Shown piece by piece: positions 9,831 to 51,961 of a stretch of 64,000 nucleotides of DNA. This stretch comes from Butyrivibrio sp. MC2013 (GTDB taxonomy: Bacteria; Bacillota; Clostridia; Lachnospirales; Lachnospiraceae), in NCBI RefSeq assembly GCF_000424585.1, contig NZ_AUKE01000007.1:62001-126000 (forward strand), given 5' to 3'. Under the pieces are notes generated by a model, which saw only the letters and a program-made list of their open reading frames with translations, did no database searches and was not told the DNA's origin. Positions within the stretch are counted from its first letter, which is position 1, and every line of letters starts with the position of its first letter. The position numbers and the translations under genes were made by a program.

Positions 9831-9981
9831 GGAATCCGCTCATTTGCTTCGCAAATGGCTACTTCCGATGGTTGAATGATCTACACTAAGAGATAATACG
9901 AATTGCTTCGCTGCTAAAGCAGCTCTCGCAATTCTACAAACATTCGGAATCCGCTCATTTGCTTCGCAAATGGCTACTTCC
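9831..9981. repeat. Pair of 36-nt direct repeats with hairpin cores
   Basis: The same 36-nt sequence (GGAATCCGCTCATTTGC onward) occurs at 9831-9866, directly after the GH5 stop, and at 9946-9981. Each copy holds a 7-bp hairpin (CATTTGC/GCAAATG, loop TTC). Between them lies another hairpin (GAATTGC with GCAATTC, 9900-9934) containing an inner AAAGCAGC/GCTGC fold. The segment would be transcribed as the GH5 3' UTR, so it may protect or process the mRNA. Confidence 0.8.
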
Positions 9982-10001
9982 TCATGTTTGTTGGGTCATA
10001 A

Positions 10002-10045
10002 AAGAGGCCTATGATGCAAGCGAGCTTGCTCATAGGCCTCTTTTT
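10002..10045 (+). terminator. GH5 intrinsic terminator
   Basis: A strong stem (AGAGGCCTATG with CATAGGCCTCT) closed by a CAAG/CTTG inner stem is followed by a T run at 10041-10045. Flanking GGGTCA and TGACCC extend the hairpin to 9993-10050. Confidence 0.85.
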
Positions 10046-10083
10046 GACCCTTATCTTATCAAAATCCACCAAATGGTGGACGA

Positions 10084-46800: not shown

Positions 46801-46878
46801 TGCACTTCTATGCCGTCTGTTATAAGGATATAACTCGGCATGCCCAGAAATGCATGGATGCATTTCTATGCCGTCTGT
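46801..46878. repeat. Duplicated DUF3737 gene tail and hairpin
   Basis: TGCACTTCTATGCCGTCTGT at 46801-46820 recurs with one change at 46859-46878, where it encodes the last codons of the DUF3737 gene. A hairpin AGAAATGCA/TGCATTTCT (46846-46867, loop TGGA) overlaps that gene's stop codon and covaries with the one at 36338-36359. Confidence 0.7.
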
Positions 46879-47702
46879 ACCATTCCCTTAGCCTCAGGAT
46901 CATCCATTATCAGCTCGCCCACAGAAGGAACTGTGATTTTGCCGCTTCTGGGATTCTTTATACTGATCATAGGGCTGTTGATCTCGGCATATACATCAGA
47001 TTTTTCAAAAGCAAGATCAGCTTCTAACATCTCGCAATTTATAAGCTTTAGATTCTTGCAATAGCACAGAGGCTGAGTGCCTATGATCTTGCAGTTCTCG
47101 AAAGTTACATTCTCGCAGTACCATGCCAGATATTCACCCTTGATCACAGAGTTTTTGACCAGGACATTTTTGGCATGCCAGAAGGAATCCTTGGTATCAA
47201 AATTACAATTGTCAAATACGGAATCCTCTATATACTGAAAAGAATATTTACCCTTGAGCTTTACATTATCAAATTTGAGATCAGTAGATCTCATCATAAA
47301 ATACTCGCTGACTGCAGATGAATCCTTCATACTGATATCATCCACAGACCATCCAAACTCAGGAGAGATGATATCACAATCCTCGATCCTGATATCAGAG
47401 CACTCTCTAAGAGCCTTGATACCATGGAGCTTGCTGCCTGTGATCACAGCATCTTCTGTGTACCAGAGGGCTGCTCTGCAGTTCTCAGTCATCTCGCAGG
47501 ATTCGATGCTCAGTCCCTTATCATGCCAGAAAGGGTATCTAAGGTTAAAAAAGGAGTCAGCAACCTCTATATTCCTGCCTTCCTTAAAGGCGCTTTCGCC
47601 ATCTGCAGGGCCGTCAAAGCGGCAGTTTTCTACGCGAACATCCTCGCATCCGTAGAGTGCGCGCTCCTCATCAAAGCTTTTATTTTGAATTATATCTTTC
47701 AT
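46866..47702 (-). CDS. DUF3737 beta-helix protein
   Basis: A 278-residue protein of the DUF3737 family. The sequence is a regular series of short strands (FENCKI, DSFFNLRYPFWHDKG, ALWYTEDAVI, YSFQYIEDSVFDNCNF) typical of a right-handed parallel beta-helix. Related proteins are annotated as hydrolase-like or pectate-lyase-like, but no activity is established. There is no signal peptide, so it is probably cytoplasmic. It is monocistronic. Confidence 0.88.
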   Translation of the reverse strand: MKDIIQNKSFDEERALYGCEDVRVENCRFDGPADGESAFKEGRNIEVADSFFNLRYPFWHDKGLSIESCEMTENCRAALWYTEDAVITGSKLHGIKALRECSDIRIEDCDIISPEFGWSVDDISMKDSSAVSEYFMMRSTDLKFDNVKLKGKYSFQYIEDSVFDNCNFDTKDSFWHAKNVLVKNSVIKGEYLAWYCENVTFENCKIIGTQPLCYCKNLKLINCEMLEADLAFEKSDVYAEINSPMISIKNPRSGKITVPSVGELIMDDPEAKGMVQTA

Positions 47703-47860: not shown

Positions 47861-48859
47861 TCACTCATTAATCTCAAGACTGTCAATGACGTAGCGTATA
47901 TCATCGGTGATGACCTTATCATTGACATACATATGGAGCATCACACAGATGCCTTCATCTGCAGGAGCAAAAGCAAATTCCGCTCTGTAATTATTATACT
48001 TTGCCACATAATGATCCAGCTTCAGTCCTGACCTGTTTACACTTTTTTCCGTAGGATATCCCCACTTGGTGGGATTCAGTATAGCAAAGTCCTCTTCGGG
48101 ACAGATATTTGTGATAATAGCCTTCTCAATATCCTTCCTGTCTGTCTTATCATTATTCACTTCCAAAAATACATTGTTATCAAAATAGAAAATGATTAAG
48201 AGATCTGCTGCATCCGAAGAAACCCTGTCTCTGATACTATAAATCTTACCGCAGTCTGCTGCCTCTATCATTTGATTAAAGTATCCCTTTTCCACGTCTG
48301 ATACCAGCTCCAGATCCTTCCAGGAAGCAGGGATTATATAGCTTACTATGCCATCAGCCAGGGTGACCTTCAGGCCATCATTGTCATCATAGGATCTTCC
48401 GTTATATATATATCGGTCCTTTGTAAGACTATTATCTCCCTTCGAAATATGATCCACTTCCAATAGGAGCTTATCAGGCTTTTTCTTATCTATCTGCAGT
48501 CTTCCGTAGGCTGTCACATTTACAGGCGCTGTCAGCTTTTCTATTTCACTTTTATCGCTTATCTTTAGCTCTATGCTGGCAGAAGAAGAGACCAAGGTTG
48601 CAGTCTTATTATTCTTGCCAATCTCAGTGATCTGCCCGCTTAGCACTATGGCATCATCATCATATTCATCATAAGCCCTGCTGATATCTGCAGACATGTC
48701 AGCGGCTATATCTTCTATGTCAGCAGCATAATACACAGGATATTCCTCCAGATCCAGCTTTGGCGGATTCTTATGAAAGCCTGCTGCCGTAGTCATAAAA
48801 AGGGCCATCATAAGAAGAGCTATTAGTTTTATTTCTTTCATTTTTCTATTTTTAGTCAT
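47861..48859 (-). CDS. Exported protein with OB-fold-like segment, end of the ExbB/D operon
   Basis: A 332-residue protein I do not recognise as a whole. A signal peptide or N-terminal anchor (about residues 8-28) leads into an extracellular region. Residues about 65-130 (AIVLSGQITEIGKNNKTATL, then VNVTAYGRL) resemble tRNA_anti-like OB-fold domains of exported proteins. The second half (170-332) is alpha/beta and carries WGYPTEKSVN and a C-terminal IRYVIDSLEI. The ATG at 48859 follows GAAGGTG. It is the last gene of the six-gene operon and lies outside the membrane, where it could be driven by or coupled to the ExbB/D motor. Confidence 0.65.
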   Translation of the reverse strand: MTKNRKMKEIKLIALLMMALFMTTAAGFHKNPPKLDLEEYPVYYAADIEDIAADMSADISRAYDEYDDDAIVLSGQITEIGKNNKTATLVSSSASIELKISDKSEIEKLTAPVNVTAYGRLQIDKKKPDKLLLEVDHISKGDNSLTKDRYIYNGRSYDDNDGLKVTLADGIVSYIIPASWKDLELVSDVEKGYFNQMIEAADCGKIYSIRDRVSSDAADLLIIFYFDNNVFLEVNNDKTDRKDIEKAIITNICPEEDFAILNPTKWGYPTEKSVNRSGLKLDHYVAKYNNYRAEFAFAPADEGICVMLHMYVNDKVITDDIRYVIDSLEINE

Positions 48860-48905
48860 CCATGCAGCACCTTCAATGATCAACATAAGTTTATAGTTTG
48901 TCTGT

Positions 48906-49409
48906 TTAATTACGAATATCAGAGTCAGCTGATCTCTTCTCTCTTATCCTGATCTTCTTGTCATTTAGAGATCTCATGATCATGCTGTATATCTGATAAT
49001 CCGCATAATCGTCTTCTAATATTACGCTCTGGCTTCCATCATATATAGCGCCAAAACGGGGTTCAAAATCTCCCTCAGAAACCACTCTGCCGTTTATCCT
49101 GATCTCCTTTGCCCTTATGCTGATAGTCAGTTCCTTATCATGGGGATCAGGCTTTATCTGAAGATTATTGTCAGTCACGTCCTGACTACTGTCATCTTCA
49201 CTTCCCTCATCAGTATCATCAATTGGTGCAGGGATCCTGTCAGCATCGAATTTCTCAGCGCCGCCCAGTATACTGCCCAGATTTACAAGGCGGTTATCCT
49301 TTTCATCCACGCTCCTTAGCTTTATTTCAAACCAGTCTGCAGCTACCAGGAGAGACCAGCAGGCGATCATGGATATTAATAATATTATTATTTTTCTTAT
49401 CTTTATCAT
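48906..49409 (-). CDS. ExbD-like accessory protein, single helix
   Basis: A 167-residue protein with one N-terminal membrane helix (about 6-24) and an extracellular domain. Residues about 90-150 follow the ExbD/TolR periplasmic pattern: LTISIRAKEIRINGRVV, then a short helix, SVILEDDYADYQIYSMIMRSLND. The N-terminal helix lacks the LTPLLDV motif, so the essential proton-carrying Asp is missing; only the Asp in AADWFEIK lies at the helix end. A highly acidic linker (50-80) precedes the domain. The start is ATG 49409 (AGGTG upstream) rather than GTG 49418. It is the third ExbD-like gene of the operon. Confidence 0.6.
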   Translation of the reverse strand: MIKIRKIIILLISMIACWSLLVAADWFEIKLRSVDEKDNRLVNLGSILGGAEKFDADRIPAPIDDTDEGSEDDSSQDVTDNNLQIKPDPHDKELTISIRAKEIRINGRVVSEGDFEPRFGAIYDGSQSVILEDDYADYQIYSMIMRSLNDKKIRIREKRSADSDIRN

Positions 49410-49495
49410 GAATAACACCTATCAGACATAATAGTCATTGCCAGATATCTGAGAGATCTTAGGCCACCTTTACTCTTTTGCTATGTCACATATAC

Positions 49496-50008
49496 TTATG
49501 GCTGCCTGATCTCTTCTATTTCACTCCTGTCAGCACCTGCTTCTTCCAGCATTTCCATAAGAGCTGAGTAGGTCTCTTCCAGGGCATAATCATCGATCAC
49601 TCTTATCTTATTCCCGCGGGACAGGGCTTTAAATATCATATCCTTTATATCACTGATATCGCTATAGCTGCTCCCATTTATTTCTATCCTGTCCAGATCA
49701 ACAGTTATTTGTAATATATCACTCTTCTCCCCGCCACCCTCATCTTCAGACATATCTTTCTGCACAATATGCTCTATGCTATCTTTTATTTTGCCATAGT
49801 CTGTATCCAGGTCTCCAAGGCCATTTATATAGATATTTTTCACAAGGCATCTGACAACAAATAGAATCAAAGCTGCTATGATAAATAGCATTATAAATGC
49901 ACTTCTTGCAGTTATGTTTTTATGCAACCGGTTATTTTTTGGTATGAAGATCATAAAAAACAAAATCAAGATGATCAGTATTATGATAGCTAAAAGATTG
50001 TAATTCAT
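49496..50008 (-). CDS. ExbD-like accessory protein, two helices
   Basis: A 170-residue protein with two membrane helices (about 4-22 and 35-55) and a C-terminal domain matching ExbD/TolR (LQITVDLDRIEINGSSYSD, then GNKIRVIDDYALEETYSALMEMLEEAG). Neither helix contains the conserved ExbD Asp. The linker is acidic and Gly-rich (SEDEGGGEK). It lies 38 bp after the canonical exbD-like gene. I infer a pseudo-ExbD subunit that may cap or regulate the motor. Confidence 0.65.
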   Translation of the reverse strand: MNYNLLAIIILIILILFFMIFIPKNNRLHKNITARSAFIMLFIIAALILFVVRCLVKNIYINGLGDLDTDYGKIKDSIEHIVQKDMSEDEGGGEKSDILQITVDLDRIEINGSSYSDISDIKDMIFKALSRGNKIRVIDDYALEETYSALMEMLEEAGADRSEIEEIRQP

Positions 50009-50046
50009 TTTCCAATTCCCTGCCGAAGCATTTTAGAAGATCATTA

Positions 50047-50562
50047 TCACTTATCTGTTCTAAAAATATTGTTATACTTTTCATGAAGTTTTGACAGATA
50101 TTCATCCAATTTCTGATAATCCCTGTATAGTATCTGATCCTTATCAAGGACTATCAGCACCGGTTTATCCTTCCATTCAGCAACAAATGTGTCGAGCTCT
50201 TCTTCTACACGCTTAAATGCTTCATCCTCTTTTTCAGGAATGATCACAATATCTTCTATTTCGGTCTCATTATTTCTGATCAGCTTAAAGTGTCTGATCC
50301 TTGGATTATCCGAATCATAAGACGCAGATAATGTTACATAGGATATGATGTCTTCCTCATTTTCCATAGCAGAGAGCTGATCTTTCACGGCAATGTTTTC
50401 AGCCACGCAAGCATCCAGCTCTTTTCGCATATCGGCTGTCTCAGCCTTGCTCTCTTTTGTCAGAAGGGTCTGATTGCACATGACCACCATCAGGATTATA
50501 AATATCACGTCCAAAAGGGGAGTCAGATCCAGATCTCCACCTCGTCTACCTATTTTTCTCAT
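50047..50562 (-). CDS. exbD: ExbD/TolR-family proton-channel subunit
   Basis: A 171-residue protein with the hallmark LDLTPLLDVIFIILMVVM at its N-terminus; the Asp in LLDV is the conserved proton-relay residue of ExbD/TolR. After the helix comes a coiled-coil-like segment (38-65) and an extended extracellular domain ending with PVLIVLDKDQILYRDYQKLDEYLSKL, again the ExbD fold. The start is ATG 50562 with AAGG properly spaced; an ATG at 50568 overlaps that site. With the ExbB protein upstream it should form a proton-driven motor. No TonB gene is present. Confidence 0.85.
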   Translation of the reverse strand: MRKIGRRGGDLDLTPLLDVIFIILMVVMCNQTLLTKESKAETADMRKELDACVAENIAVKDQLSAMENEEDIISYVTLSASYDSDNPRIRHFKLIRNNETEIEDIVIIPEKEDEAFKRVEEELDTFVAEWKDKPVLIVLDKDQILYRDYQKLDEYLSKLHEKYNNIFRTDK

Positions 50563-50578
50563 AATCATCCTTTATCTA

Positions 50579-51148
50579 TTAATCTTTGATCAGATTATTC
50601 AGATCGATGGCATTGTTAAAGAGTCTGTCTATTTCTTCAAAGTGAATTTCTATTTCATTTACTGATCTTTCAGGAGAAGAATATACATAGATCTTAAGAA
50701 TAAGTGATGCTACAAGGCCTACAAGCGTGGAGCTCAGAGCCATAGAAAGAGATGCATATAAATGAGTAAAACTTTCTTCTGCGCCGCTGACCGCAAGGCC
50801 TGATATAAGTCCCCATACTGTTCCCAAAAGCCCCGCCATTGGAAGAACTGAAATGAGATTAGACCATCTTATAAATTCCACGAGCTGCTCATTAAATCTC
50901 CTTCTGATTGGCTCAAACTTGTCTCTGCTGATCCTGGTCTCAGACTGCCTGCTAAGATCTCCTTTTGCATCCAGCCTAATCTCGCTACTGGTACTATTGT
51001 ACGCTTTCTCGCTGTCCTTACTAATAGATTTCAATTCCTTGTTAACCTTTTTCAGCTTGTTAAAGATCACGATTGCTCCCATGATCATCAGCGCGTCGAT
51101 TATTATTTCAATAAGACTCAGCTGTTTTATGAATGTTATAATAATCAT
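50579..51148 (-). CDS. exbB: ExbB/TolQ/MotA-family proton-channel subunit
   Basis: A 189-residue protein with three membrane helices: about 10-30, 97-120 and 131-157. The conserved channel motifs are present: LPMAGLLGTVWGLISG with Thr110 and ALSSTLVGLVASLI with Thr141. The loop between helices 1 and 2 is cytoplasmic and charged. AGGAGATAG supports the ATG. ExbB normally acts with ExbD to energise outer-membrane transport, but this host appears to lack an outer membrane, so the motor must drive something else. It follows the AIM24 gene by 15 bp. Confidence 0.87.
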   Translation of the reverse strand: MIIITFIKQLSLIEIIIDALMIMGAIVIFNKLKKVNKELKSISKDSEKAYNSTSSEIRLDAKGDLSRQSETRISRDKFEPIRRRFNEQLVEFIRWSNLISVLPMAGLLGTVWGLISGLAVSGAEESFTHLYASLSMALSSTLVGLVASLILKIYVYSSPERSVNEIEIHFEEIDRLFNNAIDLNNLIKD

Positions 51149-51163
51149 CTCTCTATCTCCTCA

Positions 51164-51961
51164 TCATTTATTATTATTGGGACTGGGAATTGCTTTATTA
51201 GATAATACAGGTGCCACCAGGACAGTGCCGCTTCCCCTGTATACATTGACAAGGCCCTCTCCTGCTGCCACAGAACCCACAAAGGTAGCCGTGGTCCTCT
51301 CAACGGTAAATTTCAGATCTCCGCTCCAGGCTATGGCCATATTTCCATCTATCTTCACAGTGTCATCATCCAGCCTGATCTCTATAAGCTCACTCCTTGG
51401 AACAGGGCATTCAAGAGCCACCAGTCCCTCTCCAGTAAGCTTTGTGTTGATCAGACCTTCTCCTCCCAGGACTGCCGATGACACATTGCTCCTGGCACTG
51501 AGTCTGATATCCACACTGTCCTCACAGGCCAGGAACATACCGTCCTCTATTACCATTTCGCCGCCCCAGTCAGCCAGATCTTCTATGAGAATATATCTGA
51601 AGCTAGGCTCTAGTACCAGTATGCCTTTACCTGTATACCTGGGTTTGATCGTAGATTCTCCCGTAACCCTGGCGCTGACAAATTTTCTGACCAGGTCCCC
51701 CGCTCCCGCTATATCAGTCTCAGCCTTCAGATCTCCTATCATCAGCTGCATGCGCCCCTTTTGAGCTATCACACCTTTATCATAATCAATATTCGCTGTC
51801 AGCTGCCTTTTTCTCACATCCATCAGAGATTCAAAATAGGCTTTCTGAGCTCTGTCTGATTCCACGGACAGATCTTTCTCATATTCAACTACAGAGAATA
51901 TACCCTTTTGGACAGTGACTTTTTTGGCCTCTGTCGTTTCAAAAAGATTGGTTGTGATCAT
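51164..51961 (-). CDS. AIM24 family protein
   Basis: A 265-residue protein of the AIM24/TsuA-type beta-sandwich family. The C-terminal half has the family's strongest motif run: GEGLINTKLTGEGLVALE, IDGNMAIAWSGDL and GEGLVNVYRGSGTVLVAP. AIM24 domains are widespread in bacteria with unclear function; the mitochondrial member helps organise membrane complexes. The start at ATG 51961 follows GGGGG. It is the first gene of the operon with ExbB and three ExbD-like proteins, which suggests a scaffolding role for the motor. Confidence 0.85.
   Translation of the reverse strand: MITTNLFETTEAKKVTVQKGIFSVVEYEKDLSVESDRAQKAYFESLMDVRKRQLTANIDYDKGVIAQKGRMQLMIGDLKAETDIAGAGDLVRKFVSARVTGESTIKPRYTGKGILVLEPSFRYILIEDLADWGGEMVIEDGMFLACEDSVDIRLSARSNVSSAVLGGEGLINTKLTGEGLVALECPVPRSELIEIRLDDDTVKIDGNMAIAWSGDLKFTVERTTATFVGSVAAGEGLVNVYRGSGTVLVAPVLSNKAIPSPNNNK

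Follow-up and report, generated by a model that had tools for sequence, protein, structure and literature searches.

A gene cassette with ExbB, ExbD and Asp-less ExbD-like partners in Lachnospiraceae, a candidate motor without an outer membrane

We describe a cassette of six minus-strand genes at positions 47861-51961 of a 64,000-nucleotide stretch of the genome of Butyrivibrio sp. MC2013 (contig NZ_AUKE01000007.1, positions 62,001 to 126,000), hereafter the window. Read and translated, the genes encode AIM24, ExbB, ExbD, two proteins that we call X1 and X2, and a last protein, Y. Our preferred reading, to which we assign a probability of about 0.6, is that this cassette encodes, in a monoderm bacterium, an ion-driven 5:2-type motor in which ExbD-fold subunits without the relay aspartate take the place of TonB or TolA. 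The work of such a motor would probably be mechanical and directed at the cell wall.

The marks of the 5:2 ion-driven motor superfamily are present: a channel subunit of the ExbB/MotA type, two pore threonines, and a single-helix partner with an aspartate in the membrane. The same order of ExbB, ExbD, X1, X2 and Y recurs in at least 37 distinct loci, which excludes chance.

The channel pair and its putative Asp-less partners

ExbB (50579-51148, minus strand) is a protein of 189 amino acids with three hydrophobic helices, and it matches PF01618 at 47.9 bits, over a cut-off of 22.9. When aligned with solved TolQ, its Thr110 corresponds to TolQ Thr145 and its Thr141 to TolQ Thr178. Both threonines are conserved in all 38 cassette rows, which represent 37 distinct loci because L111 and L072 lie on the same contig; L069, whose cassette is identical to that of L068, and L114, which is truncated behind ExbD, were left out. 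According to the part of PMC12905483 that we consulted, TolQ Thr145 and Thr178 are essential, together with TolR Asp23.

ExbD (50047-50562, minus strand) is predicted to form the axle, with a single hydrophobic helix in 38 of 38 rows. Its relay residue, Asp18 in the motif LTPLLDV (Asp20 when numbered from an in-frame start at 50568), is likewise conserved in every row, as is an LYRD motif in the extracellular domain. Identity to the window protein falls to 27% for ExbB (6 rows) and to 22% for ExbD (17 rows). PF02472 is matched by 15 of 17 ExbD relatives at E values up to 0.1, the best being 2.6e-6. The channel threonines and the relay aspartate had been picked out from the window's letters in a sequence-only reading, and the TolQ alignment confirms the threonines and the conservation across rows all three residues.

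The position that matches TolQ Glu173 is occupied by Thr, Val, Leu, Ile, Met, Pro or Gly and carries no acid in any of the 38 rows, so the proton is not to be assumed as the ion. The sequence-only reading had proposed a different, proton-driven machine in a host without an outer membrane; its proton part finds no support at this position, while its departure from a Ton system agrees with the host genome, as described below.

X1 (49496-50008, minus strand) has two hydrophobic helices in all 38 rows, with acids in the core of these helices in none, followed by a domain at residues ~92-170. The loop between the helices is positively charged in 37 of 38 rows, which places the C-terminal domain outside the membrane; the charge pattern puts the domains of X1, X2 and ExbD all on that side. 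An AlphaFold2 model of X1 built from 25 sequences reached a mean predicted local distance difference test (pLDDT) score of 79.4 and a predicted template modelling score of 0.49, with pLDDT values of 91-96 in the domain. Compared with solved structures by VIA-align, the model gave six top rows that were all TolR or ExbD (Z 10.5, 9.3, 9.0, 8.9, 8.4 and 8.2). The best of these were TolR 5by4 (Z 10.5, 77 aligned residues, 2.9 Å) and ExbD 8p9r (Z 9.3, 70 aligned residues, 2.0 Å). Below these six rows came unrelated structures at Z 6.6 or less and a further ExbD entry, a nuclear magnetic resonance model, at Z 6.4; neither a TonB nor a TolA C-terminal fold was among the structure rows listed. On the strength of this model, the extracellular domain of X1 is predicted to have an ExbD/TolR fold.

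X2 (48906-49409, minus strand) has a single hydrophobic segment at its N terminus; a linker connects this to a C-terminal domain that is a homologue of the X1 domain. Profile comparison of X1 with X2 by hhalign gave a probability of 99.3 over 73 columns of the C-terminal domain, and a D-x-Y-A-like motif is common to the two proteins. The hydrophobic segment of X2 was detected in 35 of 38 rows and fell below threshold in the other 3; an acid lies towards its outer end in 5 of 38 rows and none occurs in the others. Among 21 relatives of X2, no Pfam family except PF02472 was matched by two or more proteins; its matches were weak and came from 3 of the 21 (best E 0.022). In a Pfam scan of the window proteins, X1 and X2 matched no family over its cut-off, and the ExbD family was not among the 25 families listed for 25 X1-type rows. 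Taken by sequence, X1 and X2 appear to form a recognisable Asp-less family of their own. The claim of two ExbD-like proteins without the relay aspartate thus stands for X1 through its structure matches and is made likely for X2 by profile homology to X1, and the lack of the aspartate holds in both.

The last gene, Y (47861-48859, minus strand, with an alternative ATG start at 48886), encodes a predicted exported or membrane-anchored protein, for which the same Pfam scan gave only a weak tRNA_anti-like trace. The AlphaFold2 model of Y (pLDDT 84) suggests two domains: an oligonucleotide/oligosaccharide-binding (OB) fold at residues ~39-142, matching OB-fold chains at Z up to 11.8, and a PsbP-like domain at ~160-331, matching BT_1490 at Z 11.2 and PsbP chains at Z 10.2-10.7. 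Among 20 relatives of Y, tRNA_anti-like was matched by 11 and PsbP by 1 (E 0.051). An exported protein with an OB-fold-like part had been predicted, and the model supports that part and adds the PsbP-like domain. Lipoprotein anchoring of X2 and Y was also considered and rejected, since a lipobox-like motif is rare, occurring in 4 of 38 X2 rows and 3 of 38 Y rows.

AIM24 (51164-51961, minus strand; 265 amino acids, presumed cytoplasmic) is the first gene of the operon and matches PF01987 at 133.7 bits, over a cut-off of 25.7. It accompanies 17 of the 37 distinct cassettes, and in 15 of these it lies directly upstream on the same strand. On a quick cassette tree, its presence requires 3 changes, against 12.4 for shuffled labels, with L107 and L116 counted as lacking AIM24 though their contigs begin at ExbB. 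AIM24 therefore follows parts of the cassette tree and is not a random neighbour.

Adjacent genes of the window operon are spaced by about 10-90 bases, and several of the cassette genes overlap in other genomes. The placement of six closely spaced genes on one strand is as first described; in the Pfam scan AIM24 and ExbB exceed their cut-offs, and ExbD is recognised without reaching its own. The promoter scan found 12 sites against 12.8 in shuffled sequence, and 6 terminator-like sites were found against 2.4 in shuffles, with none on the minus strand just past Y. Directly downstream of the cassette lies a gene for a DUF3737 beta-helix protein (window 46866-47702, minus strand, 378.9 bits), to which none of the other neighbours listed is related.

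Distribution, host and surroundings of the cassette

All but one of the loci with the full order are labelled or placed as Lachnospiraceae. Within the genus, the full cassette occurs in 6 of 37 genomes, the window's own included (completeness 60-100%). Within the family, strong matches to Y (E up to 3.4e-29) were found in 13 of 397 genomes, and all 13 lie within a cassette. The full form did not turn up in the searches beyond the family: at class level (391 genomes), full-length Y was found only in the window's own genome, and the matches in 28 others covered the OB part and scored no more than 52.5 bits; at phylum level (398 genomes), a high ExbD score was likewise confined to the window's own genome, the other 8 matches scoring 20-26 bits.

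An ExbD alignment scan of named genomes returned at least 42 loci, of which 13 carry ordinary gammaproteobacterial ExbDs. These genomes add at least 20 full cassettes, including L111 (on the contig of L072); since L072 comes from the family search, this shared contig gives the searched family its Lachnospiraceae label. Of those 20, 19 bear a Lachnospiraceae label or are placed in that family, and the other, L108, is labelled Ruminococcus. In genome G171, an identical cassette is present on two contigs of one assembly (L068 and L069), either a duplication or an assembly artefact. A protein-only scan of genome contigs with ExbB gave no match, and an ExbD-profile scan of viral contigs gave 63 stretches, none of them a relative. 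The gene order from AIM24 onwards that the sequence-only reading had proposed to look for in Lachnospiraceae is thus found from ExbB to Y, with AIM24 as a frequent companion.

Pairwise distances of the five cassette proteins correlate at 0.71-0.85 (uncorrected against the host tree), as expected for one inherited unit. Members of one genus sit in distant parts of the cassette tree, a pattern that fits transfer or repeated loss.

The window's genome, which is 99.83% complete, contains no match to Omp85 (PF01103) or to the TonB C-terminal domain (PF03544); among 14 control genomes the same profiles were positive in 7 and 3, respectively. The host therefore appears to lack an outer membrane, as the sequence-only reading had supposed, and without a TonB match the cassette is not a Ton system. 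PF01618 has one further match in the genome, in a frame of 282 amino acids that is presumably MotA. Only one Rfam match in the window exceeds its gathering score, a Clostridiales-1 RNA (9891-10056, minus strand, 118 bits), and it agrees with a clostridial host.

The genes around the cassette vary from locus to locus, with few recurring families. From 36 cassettes, 106 neighbours were listed, and 90 were aligned and scanned. These 90 match 103 Pfam families, and among the 25 listed none occurs in more than 3 of the 90 proteins. They also match 29 PADLOC models at 1e-10, for example PDC-S01 at 4e-180 (counted without a background comparison); among the 25 models listed, mad3 occurs in 4 neighbour proteins and each other model in 1. 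We looked for a pathway to which the cassette might be linked, and none emerged from these neighbourhoods.

Three related AIM24-less cassettes (L118, L120 and L121) have a gene upstream that encodes a transglutaminase domain, shown in L118 and assigned in the others by clustering; by the same clustering, no other listed neighbourhood has this arrangement. A MoxR-type AAA gene lies further upstream in L118 and L120, and in L118 a DUF58 gene likewise precedes the transglutaminase gene.

The Asp-less partner pattern is wider than the full cassette. An Asp-less ExbD-fold protein is encoded in 25 of 26 looser ExbB-ExbD loci that lack Y; in most of them it is a single one-helix protein, and some of the matches are weak (E up to 1.7e-4). 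To these 26 loci the family search contributed 16, the genus search 2 (L014 and L015) and the named genomes 8. In the family search, the ExbB profile was matched in 75 of 397 genomes, many of the frames being of MotA size. Loci were taken down to an E value of about 6e-7, plus G163; 19 further loci were fetched. Both ExbB and ExbD are encoded in 16 of them, and the Asp-less gene is present in 15 of those.

The named genomes contain at least 8 short loci, each with an Asp-less gene, and their labels extend to Oscillospiraceae and to Hutsoniella sourekii. The Hutsoniella sourekii ATCC 700629 locus (L124, 2144-3579) has the short form ExbB-ExbD-X in an organism that we take not to be a clostridium. 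In the short loci L094 and L096, the Asp-less gene precedes ExbB rather than following ExbD; their ExbD motif is LSVLVDI or LSPLVDV. In L014 (12722-15629), one protein that combines solute-binding and von Willebrand factor A (VWA) parts is encoded downstream of a short cassette, after two proteins without a Pfam match.

A proposed motor at the wall and its alternatives

We propose that ExbB would form a pentameric wheel around an ExbD axle, with an ion path leading past Thr110 and Thr141 of ExbB and the aspartate of ExbD. X1 and X2 would be non-conducting; their ExbD-fold domains would lie on the outer side of the membrane, paired with the ExbD domain or placed above it, where TonB or TolA might otherwise be. 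From there they could relay movement or a conformational change to Y, which would hand it on to the wall or to a ligand at the surface, with AIM24 as an optional cytoplasmic partner. For this cassette we infer that the proteins form a complex and in what stoichiometry, as well as the driving ion, the rotation, the biological task and the roles of X1, X2 and Y as partners.

Several observations weigh against this proposal. The window ExbD scores below the PF02472 cut-off (20.6 bits, E 5e-4, against 25.4), and a search of its own genome at E 1e-3 did not recover it. In Foldseek, the best match for X1 was again TolR 5by4, at an E value of 2.9e-3, with none below 0.001. Searches of solved structures with the sequences of X1 or X2 gave no ExbD, and hhalign comparison with 13 gammaproteobacterial ExbDs was weak (69% for X1 and 35% for X2). 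An ExbD-like fold is suggested for X2 by the homology of its domain to that of X1. Contact of X1, X2 and Y with ExbB-ExbD is something that we infer. Among the looser loci, the Asp-less gene is missing from L091; three loci that match the ExbB profile and stand outside the 26 (L095, L102 and L103) show no ExbD as well. Finally, the cassette is patchy in both the genus and the family, and is hence dispensable.

The closest alternative concerns the axle itself. X2 could replace one of the two ExbD chains, leaving a single relay aspartate and yielding an asymmetric motor, a gated channel or a sensor. X2 resembles ExbD in its N-in, one-helix topology and domain order, its domain is homologous to the ExbD/TolR-like domain of X1, and most looser loci encode just one Asp-less one-helix protein. 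However, the X2 segment that falls under the threshold in three rows could be a signal peptide, and the two-helix X1 does not fit the pore. We regard such a mixed axle as unlikely, though worth keeping in view. It is clearly less probable that the cassette joins separate functions, namely an ExbB-ExbD channel co-transcribed with unrelated envelope proteins. The association of the cassette proteins is presumed, which leaves room for this explanation, but the five genes stay together in at least 37 distinct loci while their other neighbours change, and X1 and X2 are predicted to have the ExbD fold in common, X1 from its model and X2 from sequence.

Two further explanations would make the cassette either a relic or a weapon. 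As vestigial or non-functional Ton-type genes, it would be either a remnant or an acquisition in a monoderm, and the patchy distribution would fit; the portion of a 2025 paper that we consulted (PMC12204202) also considers the Ton genes of Clostridia, including complete Ton systems, likely to be non-functional. Against decay stand the two channel threonines and the aspartate, retained in every row, the gene order kept at low identity in at least 37 loci, the absence of a TonB match from the window's genome, and Asp-less partners that are recognisable as a family of their own. We consider a relic improbable. A Zorya-like phage-defence motor we hold to be slightly more remote still. The cassette-like, patchy distribution, the weak similarity of ExbB to ZorA models (best E 1.9e-6) and the PADLOC models matched by the 90 neighbours, some of them strongly, could be read in this way, but the cassette proteins themselves are at most weak PADLOC matches and include no nuclease or helicase by Pfam. 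Moreover, no effector recurs among the neighbours of the 36 cassettes in the 25 PADLOC models listed, and the viral contigs yielded no ExbD relative.

A force-bearing or signalling machine with Asp-less subunits remains our preferred reading, and it may extend to a general form. Tentatively, and at somewhat less than even odds, we suggest that monoderm Clostridia have a class of motors in which catalytically dead ExbD-fold subunits, and not TonB or TolA, transmit force or a signal to the wall; in Lachnospiraceae, X1 and X2 would stack on the ExbD domain and drive Y.

Relation to known motors and significance

ExbBD and TolQR are understood to be engines for work at the outer membrane. With ExbBD-TonB, the cassette has in common an ExbB-type channel with both threonines and an ExbD with the relay aspartate. 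It differs in that the window's genome has no TonB C-terminal or Omp85 match and X1, X2 and Y are present instead, and in that its ExbD carries LYRD and the position of TolQ Glu173 is non-acidic. TolQR-TolA is also related, TolQ proteins being the best solved relatives of the cassette ExbB by sequence and TolR the best fold match for X1, but again no Omp85 match was found in the window's genome.

ZorAB offers a precedent for a motor pair outside transport and motility, and the cassette ExbB has weak ZorA profile matches. However, this ExbB has 189 amino acids, compared with 505-683 positions in the ZorA models, and the cassette has no effector gene by Pfam and PADLOC. MotAB belongs to the same channel superfamily, but the cassette ExbB is short and its extracellular domain is ExbD-like rather than OmpA-like, the type found in MotB.

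In the literature searched (best matches, from a coverage that leaves subscription journals and preprints mostly outside), we found no description of this cassette. A 2022 review of 5:2 motors (PMC9389320) leaves open, in the part that we consulted, the role of ExbB-like orthologs in Gram-positive bacteria that lack ExbD. Those proteins raise the same question of function beneath a thick wall, whereas the cassette described here has ExbD and additional ExbD-fold partners.

With its channel residues intact and ExbD-fold subunits of its own, this compact cassette makes the role of ExbBD in walled, single-membrane bacteria testable. Our results suggest that the motor family may have a wall-facing branch in gut Lachnospiraceae and, if true, a class of motors with dead subunits would answer what ExbBD does without an outer membrane.

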